Source: Amylibacter sp. (GTDB taxonomy: Bacteria; Pseudomonadota; Alphaproteobacteria; Rhodobacterales; Rhodobacteraceae). Taken from it: a stretch of 10,654 nucleotides of DNA. Within the stretch, counting starts at the first letter, position 1. Each line of letters starts with the position of its first letter. Made by a program: the position numbers and the translations under genes. This document shows, piece after piece, positions 3,299 to 10,654 of the stretch. The stretch spans positions 1-10,654 of the forward strand of contig JALWOO010000818.1 of the NCBI GenBank assembly GCA_027083485.1. The letters run 5' to 3'. The notes beneath the pieces are model-generated. The model did not search any database, was not told the origin of the DNA, and worked only from the letters and a program-made list of their open reading frames with translations.

Positions 3299-5149
3299 AT
3301 GGCTATTGGTAAACGCGGAAGCGAAATTCTTGTTAATACATTTACAGACGATTTTCAGGGGAACCCGAATATTGATGCCAACCCGCTGACCGGCGGGTTT
3401 CAGATTGTTTGGGAAAGCGAAGGGCAAGACGGCGATGGTCTGGGTGTCTTTGGCCAGAATTTCAACGGTGCGGGCAGCAAGGTCGATGCGGAGTTCCAGC
3501 TCAATCAACTGACCATCGGGGATCAGCGCACGCCGGATGTGGCCTTTAATGAAGATGGCAACGGGGCCTGGGTCTGGCAGACCAACGCAGAGTACAGCTC
3601 CCGCAATATCGATGCGGATGTGATCCCGGTTGCAACCGATTTCCCGGCGGACAATGAACGGATTCACCAGCGGACCTTCGGGTTTGAAAATCAGGATGCC
3701 GCCGACCGGTATTACAATTTCGAACGCCGCCTGACCTCGGATTCCGGCCCTACAGAGACGCAGATCAATTATTACGGCCCGCGTGTGGTGTCTGTTGGCG
3801 GGGATATGTTCTCTACCGGCTATTTCGCCCCAGATCTGGCGCACGGGAGCATCAGCTATAAGGTCGATGTGTTTAACGCCAATGCCTATAAAAATGTTTA
3901 CGGGAACTGGACGCGGGGGTCTACGGAGGGCGTGCGCGGAGATCGTGAAGCAACGACTTTTGGCGATCTGGCCCAGATTGATGACAGCAATGTCCTGACC
4001 GTAGAAACTCTTGCCTATGATGAAAACAGCACCGGCGGCGTGATCCAGTTTCAGGTCTTGCAGTCATACCGTGATCGGCCTTTGTCCCATGAATCGACCT
4101 ATATTTCCGCGCTGACGCCGCAAGACCGTTATATACTGGAAGGGTCCGGCAAAACGGGTATCGCCACTGATCCGCGTGTTGTGATCCTGAAAGACGGCGG
4201 TTTTGCTATCACCTGGCAGGAAGAAAACCAGAGCGCAGCCAATCAGTCCAAATGGCATTCGGATGTCTATGTTCAGGTGTTCAATGCCGATTTCACCGCC
4301 CGCACGTCAGTTGTATCGGTGGATACGCGCCCCGGTTCGGACCAGACCGCCCCGGAAATCAGTGCCTTGAAGGATGGCGGGTTTATCATCGCCTGGGCCG
4401 ATTCCAAAGGGGACGGCAAAGGCAGCGGCATCGAGGCGCAACGTTTTGACGAGGACGGAGTGAAACTCGGCCATGTCATTGATGTCAACAGCACCACACG
4501 CGGGGATCAGGTGGCTCCGGCGCTTACCACGTTGAAAAACGGTCATGTTATGGTCACATGGGAATCCGATTACGGGGATGGCTCCAATAGTTCGGTTATG
4601 GCGCAAAAATTGATTATGCAGGCCTATGGAGCGAATAAATCCCAGATATTGACCGGTACGTCGGGCGCAGAGGTTTTCAATGTTGGCAAAGGCAATGACA
4701 AAGTGAACGCAGGCGGCGGGGCTGATGTGGTCAGGGGTGGCCTTGGCAAAGACGTGCTGAATGGCGGCTTTGGCAATGACAAGCTGTTTGGCAATGGCGG
4801 TAACGACCGGCTGAATGGCGGCGTTGGGCGTGATAAACTGTTTGGCGGGGTGGGGAATGACCGGCTGGACGGCGGCAAAGGCAATGATTTCCTGCGAGGA
4901 GATGGCGGTGCGGACCGGTTTATCTTTAAGGATGGCAAGGATGTGGTGCTGGATTTTCAGGATAATATCGACACGGTGGTGTTCTCCCATTCGCTGGTGA
5001 ACGGCTCGCTCACCAAGGCGCGGCTGGCCAATATTGTTGACGAAGGGGCCGGTCAGCTCACCTTTGACTTTGGTCACGGCGATCAGCTGACGATCAAAGG
5101 CATCAGCAACTTTGCCGACCTGCGCGACGATATCGCGTTTATTGCATAA
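3299..5149 (+). CDS. Secreted-type RTX calcium-binding protein
   Basis: The 616-residue protein has no N-terminal signal peptide, as expected for type I secretion substrates, which are exported by a C-terminal signal. Residues 463-543 are nine uninterrupted nonapeptides of the GGxGxDxLx type, which fold as a calcium-binding beta-roll. They are followed by a serralysin-like C-terminal domain (about 536-616) ending in an acidic/hydrophobic tail, DDIAFIA. Upstream are blade-like repeats of the form GDQxAPxxxxLKDGGFxIxWxxxxGDG (about 24-72, 288-340, 345-396 and 402-438), common in RTX adhesins and enzymes. Residues about 95-285 match nothing I recognise, and I see no HExxH protease motif or other catalytic signature. 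The ATG follows AGAGGA at a good spacing. No ABC transporter or membrane-fusion genes are present in the window. Activity unknown; a surface or matrix protein is plausible. Confidence 0.88.
4685..4927 (+). repeat. Nine tandem RTX nonapeptide repeats
   Basis: Nine 27-base units encode [72 protein letters not shown] and DGGADRFIF. The Asp at position five and the glycines are conserved, as needed for calcium-binding beta-roll turns. The array lies within the RTX gene and has no insertions between units. Confidence 0.93.
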
Positions 5150-6593: not shown

Positions 6594-6867
6594 GGCATCT
6601 TCCGGCAAGCAGATTTACGACCCCGGGAAGGGCTGTAGGCAACCTGTTGAAGGTATCATTCCTCGCTTGAAATAGGGCGTATTTATGAGCGTTTGATGGC
6701 CCTTTAGGGGCTTTACTCCAAAATTGGATCATGTTAAATATCAGGCTGGAATTGCGCGATTTGTATTTGAAAACGGGTTGGTTGGCCTATATTTGGTTTC
6801 TTACGTTTAGGGTACGCGGGCGCATGAAATATGATAACTTACAATGAGTTAAGTAGTGGAGGCCTAC

Positions 6868-7413
6868 ATGAATAGAGCAACATCAAAAGTCCTGCGAGGC
6901 GCGCTTTTTGCTGTCGCTTTCTTGCCGGCAGTTTCGGCGTTTGCCGAGACTGTAACCGTGGTGAATTTCGCAAGCGCAAGTCATAAGCTCAGCCCTGCAG
7001 CGCGCGCAACGCTGGATCAGTTCGTCAAGAAGAACGGCAAGCTGTGCATTAATTTGGCCGGCTATACCGATACGCGCGGTAGCGTTGCTTACAATCAGGC
7101 GCTTTCCGAGCGGCGCGTGAGCACTGTTGCGAGTTATCTCAAGAAGTTGAACTTCAAAAAAGACATCACCGGCATCAATGCTTTCGGGGAAACCCATCTG
7201 GCGGTTGCCCGTGAAGGTGACGTTGTTGCGAACCGTCGTGTGGAGCTGCGTTCCTACAAATGTGGTGGCGCTTCTTTCCCCGTCGGCGCTGTGCCAAGCT
7301 GGTTGGCTGCAGTACCGTTTGTTTGTCTGACCGGTGCTTGTGACTTCTCGTCCACATCGTCTACATCGACGACAACTACGACAACAACAACTACGACAAC
7401 AACCTCTCCTTAG
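6868..7413 (+). CDS. OmpA-domain envelope protein with poly-threonine tail
   Basis: The 181-residue product has a signal peptide with probable cleavage after SAFA (residue 26), then a single OmpA C-terminal-type peptidoglycan-binding domain (about 29-128). The motif GYTDTRGSVAYNQALSERRV (65-84) places Asp68 and Arg83 fifteen residues apart, as are Asp271 and Arg286, which hold diaminopimelate in E. coli OmpA. NRRVEL (122-127) closes the domain. There is no beta-barrel and no lipobox, so it is probably a periplasmic protein bound to peptidoglycan. The last 50 residues carry three cysteines (132, 153, 158) and end in a Ser/Thr stretch with 12 consecutive threonines. I chose ATG at 6868 because GGAGG lies five bases before it; the GTG at 6856 overlaps that SD. 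It is followed by yjbH in the same orientation, suggesting a joint envelope role. Confidence 0.87.
   Translation: MNRATSKVLRGALFAVAFLPAVSAFAETVTVVNFASASHKLSPAARATLDQFVKKNGKLCINLAGYTDTRGSVAYNQALSERRVSTVASYLKKLNFKKDITGINAFGETHLAVAREGDVVANRRVELRSYKCGGASFPVGAVPSWLAAVPFVCLTGACDFSSTSSTSTTTTTTTTTTTTSP
7369..7404 (+). repeat. Poly-threonine (ACN) codon run
   Basis: Twelve consecutive Thr codons (residues 168-179), a mix of ACG, ACA and ACT, form an imperfect trinucleotide repeat near the 3' end of the OmpA-domain gene. The mixed codons make pure replication slippage less likely and suggest selection for the amino acid. Confidence 0.9.
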
Positions 7414-7438
7414 TAGGTGGCGGTCGAGTTTTGTATTG

Positions 7439-7466
7439 AATGTCCGGCGTTATAGCGCCGGACATT
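7439..7466 (+). terminator. GC-rich hairpin between the OmpA-domain gene and yjbH
   Basis: AATGTCCGGCG (7439-7449) and CGCCGGACATT (7456-7466) form an 11-bp perfect stem with a 6-base loop, starting 26 bases after the OmpA-domain stop codon. The downstream T run is nearly absent (only the TTT at the stem end). It may be a weak terminator or a 3' mRNA-stabilising hairpin that lowers expression of the downstream yjbH relative to the first gene. Confidence 0.55.
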
Positions 7467-7564
7467 TACGCCAAGCAAACGCAAGATTTGTATGGTGTTT
7501 CAAGGGGGTGATGCAGAGCGGTTTTGCGCGTTGCTGCATCAGGGGAATCAGGAAATCCTGCGGT

Positions 7565-9655
7565 ATGAGATCTACCAAAACGAGTGTTGTTTTTTCGGCC
7601 TGTACCTGTGTTTCGGTGCTTTTCCCCGTATATGGTTCGAGCCAATCCAATCCGTCACTGAATATGTTTGGCAACCCGGGTTTGATTGATATGCCGAGTG
7701 CGGAATCCAATCCTGATGCTGAACTGAGCCTGTCGGTTTCCCATTTTGCCAAGGCAACCCGCACCTCGCTGAACTTTCAAATTAGCCCCCGTATTTCCGG
7801 TACTTTCCGCTATGCGCGGATTGATAACTGGTTCAATGGCAGCGAAACCTTTGACCGGAGTTTTGATATACGATTCAAGCTCTTGAACGAGAGCAAGTTC
7901 CTGCCTGCTGTGGCGCTCGGGCTGCGCGACTTTATGGGGACGGGGCTTTATTCGTCGCAATATCTGGTTGCAACCAAGAATCTGGGCGACACCTTCAAGG
8001 TCACCGCCGGTTTGGGCTGGGGGCGTTTGTCGGGCACCAAGAAATTCCAGCCATTGAATTTCGGGCGCGGTGGCAAACCCAATTACAAAGAATGGTTTCG
8101 CGGCGATGTCGGTGTTTTCGGGGGGCTGGAATGGCAAACGCCGATTGATGGCCTTCGGGTCAAGGTGGAATACAGTCCGGATCAATACGTCTGGGAAAAC
8201 CGTATTTTCCAAAGGCGGAGGGTGAAAACCTTTGACCGCAAGTCTCCGGTCAACTTTGGCTTTTCATACGTCACCAAACGGAACCTGCAATTTAGCGGCT
8301 ATTATATGTATGGCTCCGAAATCGGGTTTTCATTTTCAACCTCGCTTAACCCCAAGCGCAAGCGCCAGCTGTATCGGGCGCTCCCTGAACAGCGTGTTTT
8401 GGCAATTCGCCAGCGTCCACAAGGGGTTAGCACGGCTTCCTTTGCCGATGGTTTTGACAAGGTAACCACCCAGAGTTACACTGAACAGTTGCAAAAGGCT
8501 CTTGGCAAGAAAACCGTGCAGGTGATCTATGCCAATTACAACGGCGGTTCTGCCGAAGTACGCATTCGCAATGCCAAGTTTAACCGCCCGGGGCAGGCGG
8601 CGGAACACACCATGCGGGCGATGACACAGGTTCTGCCTGATGGAATCGAGAATTTTTCCGTGGTGTTGATGGAAAATGACCTGCCTATTTCCACCGTTCA
8701 TGCCAAACGCTCCGATATCGAAGCCCTTGGCCGTGACGGCATCGGCGGCAATTTCGGGCAGCTGGTTCAGGTCGATGCGGGCCAAAAGGCAAGCGGTGAT
8801 GGATTTTACACAGACGGTATTTATCCGAAATTCACCTCCTATTTACGTCCGTTCCTGAAACCTCACCTGTTTGATCCGGATGATCCGGTGCGTGCCGATT
8901 TCCGGATTGGCTGGAATTCCGTTTATGACATTAAACCGGGTCTGTCGATTTCATCAGAGCTGTCGGCCAAGGTGCTGGGCAATCTGGACAACAACAAACG
9001 GGCGTCAAATTCGGTTCTGCTGCATGTGCGGACCGATCTGGATAAATACCAGCGCAACAGCGAATTTACCATTGACCGTTTGACCATTGATTACATGACC
9101 AAACTGTCGCCCTCTGTTTATGCGCGCGTCAGTGCCGGTATTTTCGAACAGATGTACGGCGGGATTTCTGCCGAAGTTTTGTGGAAGCCGATCGACAGCC
9201 GCCTTGCCTTTGGGGCAGAGGTGAACTGGGTCAAAAAACGCGGCTTTGATCAACGGTTAAGCTTTCAGAACTTCTCTACTGTGACCGGCCATGTGTCTGC
9301 CTATTGGGATATGGGTAACAGTTATTATGGCCAGATCGATGTGGGGCGCTATCTGGCCCATGATCTGGGCGCGACCTTCACCTTTGAGCGCCGCTTTGAT
9401 AACGGCTGGCGGATCGGGGCTTTTGCGACCTTTACCAATGTCTCCTTTGCGGATTTTGGCGAAGGGTCGTTTGACAAAGGCATCAATGTCACCATTCCGT
9501 TCTCCTGGCTTGCTGGTGGGCAACCCACACGGCGGCGTCATAACCTGGTCATCCGCTCCATTACCCGCGATGGCGGGGCACGTGTGGATATTCCGAACCG
9601 GCTTTATGGAATCGTTTCGGACGCTGGCAAGAAACAGATCGTCAATTCATGGTAA
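7565..9655 (+). CDS. yjbH: YjbH/GfcD-family outer-membrane protein (exopolysaccharide-associated)
   Basis: YjbH-family proteins are outer-membrane beta-barrels linked to exopolysaccharide or capsule production; in E. coli the family sits in the yjbEFGH and gfc operons. The product from the ATG at 7565 is 696 residues, nearly the E. coli YjbH length. A signal peptide (MRSTKTSVVFSACTC..., about 1-26) is followed by GNPGLIDMPSA (36-46), RYARIDNWFN (82-91), DRSFDIRFKLL (97-107) and GLRDFMGTGLYSSQYLVATK (119-138), all hallmarks of the family. The rest alternates polar and hydrophobic residues like beta-strands, and the chain ends in Trp. The frame stays open to 7334, overlapping the previous gene, but that extension has no signal peptide logic. 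ATG 7511 is an alternative, though its GGGGG is only two bases away. The chosen start has AGGA 11 bases upstream. The yjbE, yjbF and yjbG partners are absent. Confidence 0.88.
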   Translation: MRSTKTSVVFSACTCVSVLFPVYGSSQSNPSLNMFGNPGLIDMPSAESNPDAELSLSVSHFAKATRTSLNFQISPRISGTFRYARIDNWFNGSETFDRSFDIRFKLLNESKFLPAVALGLRDFMGTGLYSSQYLVATKNLGDTFKVTAGLGWGRLSGTKKFQPLNFGRGGKPNYKEWFRGDVGVFGGLEWQTPIDGLRVKVEYSPDQYVWENRIFQRRRVKTFDRKSPVNFGFSYVTKRNLQFSGYYMYGSEIGFSFSTSLNPKRKRQLYRALPEQRVLAIRQRPQGVSTASFADGFDKVTTQSYTEQLQKALGKKTVQVIYANYNGGSAEVRIRNAKFNRPGQAAEHTMRAMTQVLPDGIENFSVVLMENDLPISTVHAKRSDIEALGRDGIGGNFGQLVQVDAGQKASGDGFYTDGIYPKFTSYLRPFLKPHLFDPDDPVRADFRIGWNSVYDIKPGLSISSELSAKVLGNLDNNKRASNSVLLHVRTDLDKYQRNSEFTIDRLTIDYMTKLSPSVYARVSAGIFEQMYGGISAEVLWKPIDSRLAFGAEVNWVKKRGFDQRLSFQNFSTVTGHVSAYWDMGNSYYGQIDVGRYLAHDLGATFTFERRFDNGWRIGAFATFTNVSFADFGEGSFDKGINVTIPFSWLAGGQPTRRRHNLVIRSITRDGGARVDIPNRLYGIVSDAGKKQIVNSW

Positions 9656-9708
9656 GGTGAAACGCGCTAAAATCCCGCTTGTGTTAAGGGGGCAAAGCGC
9701 GTTACACC
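9656..9708. repeat. Long interrupted inverted repeat after yjbH
   Basis: The left arm 9656-9668 (GGTGAAACGCGCT) and right arm 9696-9708 (AGCGCGTTACACC) are reverse complements at 12 of 13 positions, with an A-A mismatch, around a 27-base spacer. It starts immediately after the yjbH stop codon. No T run follows, so it is not a canonical terminator. It could be a 3'-end hairpin of the yjbH mRNA or an operator, because its right arm overlaps the likely promoter region of the cysS leader. Confidence 0.5.
9679..9707 (+). promoter_or_regulatory. Weak candidate promoter for the cysS leader
   Basis: TTGTGT (9679-9684) and TTACAC (9702-9707) are 17 bases apart. The -10 match is poor. If used, transcription would begin about at the ATG of the cysteine-rich ORF, giving a leaderless leader peptide. 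That would explain why no Shine-Dalgarno is seen before it. Confidence 0.22.
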
Positions 9709-9714
9709 GATCTT

Positions 9715-9759
9715 ATGAAAACCTGCATCACCATCTGCTGCATTTGTATTCCCTGCTAA
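9715..9759 (+). CDS. Cysteine-rich leader peptide upstream of cysS
   Basis: ATG opens a 14-codon ORF, MKTCITICCICIPC, ending in TAA. Five of its 14 residues are cysteine (4, 8, 9, 11, 14; codons TGC, TGC, TGC, TGT, TGC). An in-frame TAA at 9685 and the absence of any other start codon fix this reading. It lies 79 bases before the start of cysS, the enzyme that charges tRNA-Cys. By analogy with amino-acid leader peptides such as pheM before pheST in E. coli, ribosome stalling at Cys codons when Cys-tRNA is scarce could raise cysS expression. No clear Shine-Dalgarno is present; leaderless translation is possible. The ORF is seen directly; its role is inferred. Confidence 0.6.
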   Translation: MKTCITICCICIPC

Positions 9760-9767
9760 CATCGCTG

Positions 9768-9813
9768 CGTGGGCCGGTTTTTCATTTTCAGAATAACATG
9801 TGACAGGCCCGCG
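9768..9813 (+). promoter_or_regulatory. Putative regulatory stem in the cysS leader
   Basis: CGTGGGCC (9768-9775) can pair with GGCCCGCG (9806-9813), eight pairs including one G-U, around a 30-base loop. The same GGGCC (9771-9775) can alternatively pair with GGCCC at 9833-9837, which covers the bases between the GAGG Shine-Dalgarno and the cysS ATG. The stem starts nine bases after the stop of the cysteine-rich ORF, within reach of a ribosome stalled on its last Cys codons. Confidence 0.4.
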
Positions 9814-9838
9814 TCGGGATAATCGACCGTGAGGCCCC

Positions 9839-10654
9839 ATGACCGAGATCAAGCTCTATAACACCAAGACCCGCAGCAAGCAGGTTTTCACCCCGATTGA
9901 TGCGGATAATGTGCGTATGTATGTATGTGGGCCGACGGTCTATGACCGCGCCCATATCGGCAATGCGCGGCCGGTGATCGTGTTTGATACGCTGTATCGG
10001 CTGTTGCGCCATGAATACGGTGTTGAACACGTTAAGTATGCCCGCAATTTCACCGATGTAGACGATAAAATCAACGCCCGCGCTGCCGAAACGGGGCGCT
10101 CTATTCGGGATATCACCGATGAAACCATTAAGTGGTTTCTGGATGATATGGGCGCGCTTGGCGCATTGGAGCCGGATTTCGCCCCGCGTGCCACGGAATA
10201 CATCGACCAGATGATCGCCATGACGCAGGAGTTGATTGATCTGGGCCATGCCTACGAGGCCGAGGGCCACGTGCTGTTCGCGGTGGAAAGCTATGGCAAA
10301 TACGGCATCCTGTCGGGGCGGTCTGTGGATGACATGATCGCCGGCTCGCGAGTCGAGGTAGCCCCCTATAAACGCAATCCGATGGATTTTGTACTGTGGA
10401 AACCGTCGGATGAAAACACGCCGGGCTGGGACAGCCCCTGGGGGCGCGGGCGGCCGGGCTGGCATATCGAATGCTCCGCCATGTCGCGCGAATTGTTTGG
10501 CGACAGCTTCGACATCCACGGCGGCGGGCTGGATCTGGCCTTTCCCCACCACGAAAACGAACGCGCCCAAAGCTGCGCCTGTTGTGGTGAAGACAGCTAT
10601 GCGCAAATCTGGATGCATAACGAAATGTTGCAGGTCGAGGGCAAGAAGATGTCC
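9839..10654 (+). CDS. cysS: Cysteinyl-tRNA synthetase (N-terminal part)
   Basis: CysS is the class I synthetase that activates cysteine with ATP and charges tRNA-Cys in the cytoplasm. The window contains the first 272 codons; the family is usually about 460-500 residues. [19 protein letters not shown] contains the HIGH-type motif HIGN (39-42). The zinc ligands that select the cysteine thiol are all present: Cys30, Cys212 in GWHIECSAM, His237 and Glu241 in FPHHENE, matching E. coli Cys28, Cys209, His234 and Glu238. [12 protein letters not shown] (67-78), [15 protein letters not shown] (176-190) and [14 protein letters not shown] are typical. The sequence stops inside the KMSKS loop (KKMS, 269-272). 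The ATG at 9839 follows GTGAGG at a short spacing. Upstream lies a cysteine-rich leader ORF that may control it. Confidence 0.97.

Follow-up and report, generated by a model that had tools for sequence, protein, structure and literature searches.

What role does a very short, cysteine-rich open reading frame (ORF) play immediately in front of the gene for cysteinyl-tRNA synthetase, cysS? The question is raised by a 10,654-nt stretch of Amylibacter DNA (contig JALWOO010000818.1, from a genome assembly of 854 contigs), here called the window, in which the first-pass annotation had pointed to a 14-residue ORF with five Cys codons and a gap of 79 nt between its stop codon and cysS. Both the coordinates and the count are correct, the Cys codons being codons 4, 8, 9, 11, and 14 of the ORF (TGC TGC TGC TGT TGC). 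The elements concerned are the following.

9715..9759, plus strand: leader ORF, MKTCITICCICIPC and its stop codon, identified by reading of the window, recurrence in relatives, and a shuffle test
9724-9726, 9736-9741 (tandem), 9745-9747, and 9754-9756, plus strand: Cys codons of the leader
9829..9834, plus strand: Shine-Dalgarno-like GTGAGG of cysS, from sequence reading and accessibility analysis
9839..10654, plus strand: cysS, cysteinyl-tRNA synthetase (TIGR00435, PF01406), N-terminal 272 residues, starting with the ATG at 9839 and cut by the window end

Although the gene is incomplete, its product scores 364.2 bits against TIGR00435 (cut-off, 340), and the named relatives of its first 272 residues, at 79 to 82% identity, are Rhodobacteraceae. 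A tRNA gene search found no tRNA gene in the window, and no Rfam 15 family, the T-box included, reached the gathering level anywhere in it; weak matches to snR55 and Enterococcus sRNA 30 (E values of 0.55 and 2.3) were taken as chance. As for the neighboring genes, positions 6856 to 9655 hold an OmpA-domain protein with a Thr-rich tail and then a YjbH-family protein (PF06082, residues 108 to 762 of the listed ORF), whose listed start at 7334, overlapping the OmpA gene, is probably too early, while the protein encoded at positions 3299 to 5149 is 616 residues long and carries calcium-binding repeats of the RTX type (PF00353) in the C-terminal region.

Coincidence had been judged unlikely in the first-pass annotation, and the shuffle test bears this out. 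None of 5,000 dinucleotide shuffles of the 250 nt upstream of cysS matched the Cys richness of the window ORF, defined as an ATG-initiated ORF of 9 to 24 codons with its stop 25 to 190 nt before cysS and at least 5 Cys in the last 12 codons, and none contained any ORF of up to 14 codons with at least 5 Cys. For the comparison among species, the same definition was used, but with a threshold of 2 Cys instead of 5 in the last 12 codons. The Rhodobacterales set comprised the loci named as Rhodobacteraceae or its genera and the genomes of the window's family, plus two loci named only as Alphaproteobacteria (L041 and L047); the family sample consisted of 28 new loci and 60 further upstream stretches from 197 family genomes with a match, so that the set leans toward close relatives of the window cysS. 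A Rhizobiales set was drawn from 249 genomes of the order around genome G597, taken as a member of the Rhizobiaceae since its cysS and that of Rhizobium leguminosarum L071 share 95% identity; 79 of 87 loci passed a relaxed Cys/Ile score, which favors the pattern, and two loci from outside the searched order (L221 and L322) are included. The Cys-rich ORF, whose presence in close relatives had been proposed as a check, was found in 113 of 140 Rhodobacterales upstream regions, compared to a shuffle mean of 8.3, in 51 of 93 of the Rhizobiales set (shuffle mean, 2.75; L221 is again among the 93, to which the unbiased rule of at least 2 Cys applies), and in 25 of 121 others (shuffle mean, 4.7), all these counts including close relatives without phylogenetic thinning. 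On the reverse strand, the numbers were 7, 3, and 4, respectively, and raising the threshold to at least 3 Cys left 90, 7, and 11 upstream regions versus shuffle means of 1.05, 0.1, and 0.55. Furthermore, a Cys/Ile-rich ORF recurs in the window's family at a similar distance from cysS: of 149 family genomes searched with R1, a sequence model of the leader built on 69 sequences, 125 gave a match (a single one in 121) and 24 gave none, and the 87 matches that were paired by hand with cysS, among the 117 listed at E values up to 1e-4, all lie on the same strand, 21 to 79 nt upstream of the gene. The leader of cysS is real and conserved.

The pattern of substitution inside the ORF is less simple. 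A bias at synonymous sites had been suggested as a further check, and here the outcome was different, since the divergence rates at codon positions 1, 2, and 3 (0.322, 0.257, and 0.244 in Rhodobacterales; 0.35, 0.272, and 0.301 in the Rhizobiales set) show no third-position excess and do not support coding selection. A shifted frame (HHYLLHYPLT...), which is often open, was considered as an alternative coding frame and rejected: no start codon of its own was seen, and its would-be synonymous third position hardly varies. This position corresponds to the T of an Ile codon, the third before the leader stop, and this T is present in at least 100 of 108 Rhodobacterales. In the leader frame, 93 of 108 Rhodobacterales use ATT for this codon. 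Among 66 species, leader Cys codons are TGC in 198 cases and TGT in 24, whereas the first 200 codons of cysS contain 37 and 32, respectively (Fisher P = 1.1e-9), and leader Ile codons are ATT in 160 cases and ATC in 113, compared to 185 and 481 (P = 1.1e-18). Ile outnumbers Cys in the leader peptides (32.7% versus 25.3%), in a set whose selection score favors both. The codon choice is thus a constraint at the nucleotide level, beyond the amino acid, that falls outside what an attenuation model explains. It is compatible with the idea that the element is read as RNA, by a ligand or a protein, and that its Cys codons are incidental; however, Cys codons recur in other families in different nucleotide contexts and no Rfam family was found in the window at the gathering level, and we regard this idea as very unlikely.

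If the ORF works as a sensor, the position of the ribosome on it should decide between RNA structures, and we examined the pairings available to the transcript. The segments concerned in the window are as follows.

9715..9723, plus strand: segment 1, the start codon and codons 2 and 3 (AUGAAAACC), which pairs with segment 2b, from the fold of 9715-9796 and coevolution
9768..9775, plus strand: segment 2a (CGTGGGCC), partner of segment 3a, from covariation; partly used by the 1:2 helix in many relatives
9776..9789, plus strand: segment 2b with the U-rich stretch (GGTTTTTCATTTTC), which pairs with segment 1 and may serve as a terminator tail
9806..9813, plus strand: segment 3a (GGCCCGCG), which pairs with segment 2a

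The duplex between segments 1 and 2b in the window has an energy of -13.6 kcal/mol. Since the register of the pairings shifts between species, coevolution was assessed by comparing the energy of each native duplex with that obtained when segments are swapped between species, on sequences whose ORF reached a Cys/Ile score of 7, with L030, L111, L146, L158, and L164 removed by hand. In Rhodobacterales below 75% identity (n = 88), the 1:2 helix, with segment 2 taken as nt 11 to 34 after the stop, averaged -10.29 kcal/mol versus -8.27 for swapped segments (z = -8.9; 0 of 2,000 permutations), the small hairpin at the stop codon reached z = -7.6, and 2a:3a and 2b:3b reached -5.7 and -2.8, with controls at -1.4 and -1.2. 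Below 65% identity (n = 61), 1:2 and 2a:3a kept z values of -7.4 and -3.6, but the 1:3 control also stood at -2.9, so that small effects should not be over-read. The Rhizobiales set below 65% identity (n = 36) gave -5.5 for 1:2, -5.8 for the stop hairpin, and -3.7 for 2:3, with controls at -0.7 and 0.1; below 50% (n = 8), 1:2 was at -1.4 and the controls at -1.2 and -1.4, so that nothing can be decided from this subset. In a fixed alignment of 69 sequences, 90.3% of the 2a:3a cells pair and covariation is 0.111 versus 0.062 (0 of 500 shuffles for both), whereas two of the five measures are unexceptional, namely, double-sided changes (102 of 500 shuffles) and further pair types (41 of 500). The stretch of Cys codons showed no coevolving partner (z = -0.9, 0.6, and 1.3), single-sequence folds of the window were no more stable than shuffles (z = -0.87, 0.22, and -0.65), and the stop hairpin of the window itself is degenerate. 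Segments 1 and 3 compete for segment 2, and it follows that 1:2 and 2:3 either exclude each other or form a pseudoknot.

The geometry of translation can be laid over these pairings if the ribosome is assumed to have a footprint reaching 14 nt to each side of its P and A sites. A ribosome at the best-placed Cys codon would cover on average 0.81 of segment 1 in Rhodobacterales, and at least half of it in 89 of 108, while the corresponding values in the Rhizobiales set are 0.54 and 44 of 78; at the stop codon, the covered fraction falls to 0.0 and 0.02, respectively. Among the 100 sequences whose stem scores at least 18, 87 have segment 2a starting 6 to 9 nt after the stop, a distance that places it within reach of a terminating ribosome. 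With the footprint assumed, the leader thus appears to have the trait typical of the his and trp leaders, that is, mutually exclusive RNA structures chosen by the position of the ribosome. The layout of an amino acid leader sensing Cys-tRNA, as proposed in the first-pass annotation, is therefore supported by the conservation of the ORF, the coevolving exclusive pairings, and the masking geometry, insofar as sequence comparison can speak to it.

Two promoter-like elements accompany the leader, one before the ORF and one inside the leader, of which the first bears on how the ORF is read and the second on what part of the conservation belongs to the leader at all.

9679..9708, plus strand: predicted promoter P1, TTGTGT (9679-9684), an 18-nt spacer, and TACACC (9703-9708), a weak match in the window
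9785..9806, plus strand: degenerate counterpart of promoter P2, TTTTCA (9785-9790) and TGACAG (9801-9806), from reading against the consensus

In the window, P1 was not reported by the promoter scan, and its position is supported by the relatives. The end of its -10 element leaves 6 nt before the leader ATG, so that transcription is expected to start at the A of the ATG. The distance from the -10 end of the best pair of boxes to the ATG is 5 to 8 nt in 103 of 108 Rhodobacterales, compared to 20.6% of shuffles; in the Rhizobiales set, this holds for 63 of 79 sequences, compared to 22.9% of shuffles. Such a position implies that the first base is the A of the AUG or one of its neighbors and that translation of the ORF should do without a Shine-Dalgarno site; thus, the leader ORF is probably leaderless. 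An inverted repeat, AACGCGCT...AGCGCGTT, occupies window positions 9661 to 9703, in the gap that separates the YjbH gene, ending at 9655, from the leader, where it overlaps P1; partly retained in the relative L002, it could be a terminator of the upstream gene or an operator.

P2 is a block of the type TTTCCA-N14-TGnTA found in Rhodobacterales, with a fixed spacing and a variable spacer. Among 74 ORF-bearing sequences having a single TGnTA, 42 show the spacing of 14 with at least 5 of 6 matches, and no more than 8 do so at any other spacing; TGnTA is absent from 21 of 108 Rhodobacterales. The block resembles a sigma-70 promoter of the extended -10 type, one that would serve cysS itself. We had considered reading the conserved loop between segments 2 and 3 as a structured RNA, and this was set aside, as the loop contains this fixed-spacing promoter. 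The window's counterpart has a spacing of 10 instead of 14 and a C instead of a T in TGnTA and is probably non-functional; as the block is altered in the window and in its relatives L002 to L004, the window may rely on P1.

The existence of P2 allows a different account of the conservation, namely, that the conserved block is mainly the promoter of cysS and the ORF is untranslated. The sharply fixed spacing agrees with it, as does the retention of P2 (at least 4 of 6 matches) in 15 of 16 genomes, picked by reading, that were read as lacking a Cys ORF. P2, however, accounts only for the 3' half of the element, and the ORF, the stop hairpin, 1:2, and 2:3 are separate from it. In particular, the 2a:3a stem scores at least 18 in 67 of 77 sequences with both the ORF and P2, compared to none of the 15 that have P2 without a Cys ORF, five of which lie just under this cut-off (four at 17 and one at 17.5), and the Rhizobiales set retains the leader while the P2 block (at least 5 of 6 matches) occurs in none of its 79 sequences. 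We give this account hardly any credit. As a separate observation, a group of AT-rich relatives (L017, L019, L021, L023, and L024) has lost the Cys ORF and the 2a:3a stem and retained the inner promoter, and L017 and L019 keep a degenerate stretch that still resembles part of the peptide.

Taken together, the best explanation of the leader is, with good probability, a transcription attenuator that senses Cys-tRNA. The comparison provides the conservation of the ORF, the coevolution of 1:2, 2:3, and the stop hairpin, the position of the promoter, and the geometry, from which we infer translation, stalling, termination, and the response. Transcription would begin at or beside the A of the leader AUG, as the position of P1 suggests, and a ribosome would load on the bare 5' end. 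With ample Cys-tRNA, it would pass the Cys codons, stop, and leave, after which segment 1 could pair with segment 2b beside the small stop-codon hairpin and the RNA polymerase would end at the U-rich stretch. When Cys-tRNA is short, the ribosome would wait at the Cys codons and cover segment 1, the 1:2 helix would be blocked, and transcription would run into cysS, with segment 2 pairing with segment 3. In the many Rhodobacterales leaders that carry it, the second promoter could provide a basal supply of cysS that bypasses the sensor.

The output stage of this attenuator deserves separate consideration. In Rhodobacterales, 94 of 106 sequences have a U-rich 8-mer, with at least 5 T, downstream of segment 2, and 5 of 106 have one between 3a and cysS, the corresponding figures for the Rhizobiales set being 50 and 22 of 79. 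The 8 nt right after the 1:2 helix contain on average 4.08 T in Rhodobacterales and 3.04 in the Rhizobiales set, which is not a clean U-run. Since the U-rich stretch overlaps the -35 box of P2, part of its conservation could be that of the promoter; more generally, conservation within a leader can be promoter sequence, so that a conserved U-rich end alone is no proof of a terminator. Another point against the attenuation model is the timing of 2:3, which can form only beyond the stage at which the polymerase would have terminated, so that its part in termination is hard to place. In Rhizobium L071 and L053, a pattern scan detected a terminator-like hairpin with a T-run near the position of 3:4 (0.5 and 0.4 sites expected in shuffles), which would make a classical design of 1:2, 2:3, and 3:4. 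When 30 loci of the Rhizobiales set were searched by folding, on the other hand, 12, L053 among them, yielded no clean hairpin, and only L071 and L229 had one with at least 5 T in the next 10 nt; with 2 of 30 loci, a 3:4 terminator is not general.

The same sensor could instead act on translation, if segment 3, once freed from segment 2, folded over the Shine-Dalgarno site of cysS in a 3:4 pairing. In Rhodobacterales, where a U-rich stretch between 3a and cysS is rare, the native 3a does lower the predicted accessibility of this site slightly with respect to a shuffled 3a (mean difference, 0.034; standard error, 0.012; n = 94), accessibility being lower with the native segment in 51 sequences and higher in 26, and in the window the modeled value is 0.17 when 3a is present, 0.54 when it is removed, and 0.32 when it is shuffled. 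No such effect of 3a appears in the Rhizobiales set (0.021; standard error, 0.025; n = 41), and 3:4 is without clear coevolution in either group (z = -1.4 and -1.1 in Rhodobacterales, n = 88; z = -1.8 in the Rhizobiales set, n = 50). The modeled accessibilities thus speak weakly for masking by segment 3, and a translational output seems unlikely to us. With moderate confidence, based on these sequence features, we favor premature termination as the output of the attenuator, with room for differences between lineages.

How far the leader extends beyond the Rhodobacterales can be appreciated from the cysS upstream regions of Rhizobium, Ensifer, Mesorhizobium, Bradyrhizobium, and Devosia, which contain ORFs such as MKTVICIICRKIIR, MKTSFAICGICIIG, MNGHLEICSICREIIS, and MKTKCTIIACIITC, and from those of Phyllobacterium and Stappia, whose ORFs have one Cys each. 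In further families, the nucleotides of the ORF differ and Cys near its end is kept: three genomes of one family (f4) show the endings LCCCA, WCCA, and CPCRCA before the stop, two genomes of another (f91) show RCCIAIPRITG and RCCCPGGRITA, likewise before the stop, and single cases occur elsewhere. Several other cysS upstream regions consist of what we take, from its C-terminal sequence, to be the end of gltX directly before cysS, and these have no clear leader. Two observations may be added. In L203, L210, and L217, which belong to one family, the ORFs ending in LCCCA, WCCA, or CPCRCA have 21 to 23 codons and an apparent Shine-Dalgarno site, unlike the leaderless type of the Rhodobacterales. 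In L094, an alphaproteobacterial metagenome-assembled genome, cysS is preceded by a 27-residue, very Cys-rich ORF, MTHQSCSCKKCDCHGNCGKNCACGCCK, which, instead of being a leader, may encode a small metal-binding protein.

It is possible to hypothesize, as a tentative joint reading to which we would not give even odds, that a Cys-tRNA-sensing leader of cysS is widespread in the alphaproteobacteria (Rhodobacterales, Rhizobiales, and parts of other families) and that in the first two of these, both orders, the transcript begins with the AUG. With the start codon as one strand of 1:2, that helix would both end transcription and switch off further leaderless initiation. The output would then have diverged: Rhodobacterales would have a U-rich end after 1:2, overlying an inner promoter for basal supply, and a few Rhizobiaceae would have a 3:4 terminator. 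If true, one compact design would serve at least two large orders, including model strains of Rhodobacter, Sinorhizobium, and Rhizobium, and leaderless initiation would be tied to attenuation; the enzyme concerned, CysRS, is one on which all protein synthesis depends.

Among known systems, the control of cysS by the charging state of tRNA-Cys is familiar from Firmicutes, where the gene is under T-box control. The T-box reads the tRNA directly and needs no leader peptide, and in this it differs from the leader proposed here, while the gene and the signal would be the same. A closer likeness is offered by the mycobacterial polycysteine small ORFs of Canestrari et al. (2020), as described in PMC9031893 and PMC9094748: they are short and leaderless, with contiguous Cys codons, and the speed of their elongation depends on cysteine and controls the downstream genes. 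The cysS leader would share with them its small size, its Cys richness, and its start at the AUG, which here is indicated by the position of the promoter only; the mycobacterial ORFs belong to another phylum and attenuate operonic genes, whereas the gene downstream here is that of an aminoacyl-tRNA synthetase.

Within the alphaproteobacteria, the tryptophan leader trpL of Sinorhizobium meliloti is described as a leaderless leader peptide of 14 residues whose transcript, rnTrpL, starts with the AUG (PMC10117765). Length, host group, and apparent leaderless start are thus shared with the cysS leader, although trpL is a tryptophan attenuator before trpE whose translation was seen by Ribo-seq, whereas that of the cysS leader is predicted. 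Both rnTrpL and the peptide peTrpL are reported to act in trans, and by analogy the attenuated cysS leader RNA or its 14-residue peptide might do so besides acting in cis. The agreement in size and in the apparent start lends itself to this analogy; the sequence of the cysS leader peptide, however, varies much between clades, and we attribute to an action in trans only the slightest probability.

The nearest relative is already in print. The first-pass annotation knew of no standard annotation of this kind for proteobacterial cysS, but Brewer et al. (2021, RNA Biol., PMC8632094) described uORFC-8-2, with 145 examples, exclusively in Rhodobacterales and upstream of cysS, and with a conserved AUG, two tandem Cys codons usually at codons 14 and 15, two stems, and a U-run at the 3' end; ribosome-mediated attenuation was proposed there as a prediction. 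The window leader likewise adjoins the 5' side of cysS in a member of the Rhodobacterales and has an AUG and tandem Cys codons, here at codons 8 and 9 (a CC tandem occurs in 86 of 108 Rhodobacterales leader ORFs), and positions 9778 to 9789 hold 9 T in 12 nt. The two stems of uORFC-8-2 apparently correspond to our 1:2 helix and stop hairpin; its first stem contains the Cys codons, here 1:2 encloses them, and the stop hairpin of the window is weak. This independent arrival at the same prediction was counted in favor of the attenuator. No other paper on this cysS leader was recognized in the open-license literature, most subscription papers lying outside the search. The AUG transcript start, the 2:3 alternative, the inner promoter, and members outside Rhodobacterales do not appear in the accessible description of uORFC-8-2, and the wider range, the leaderless start, the alternative pairing, and the second promoter are what the present comparison of sequences would add: the mechanism of the cysS leader is one that we infer, its prediction stands in print for Rhodobacterales, and its range and anatomy are extended here.
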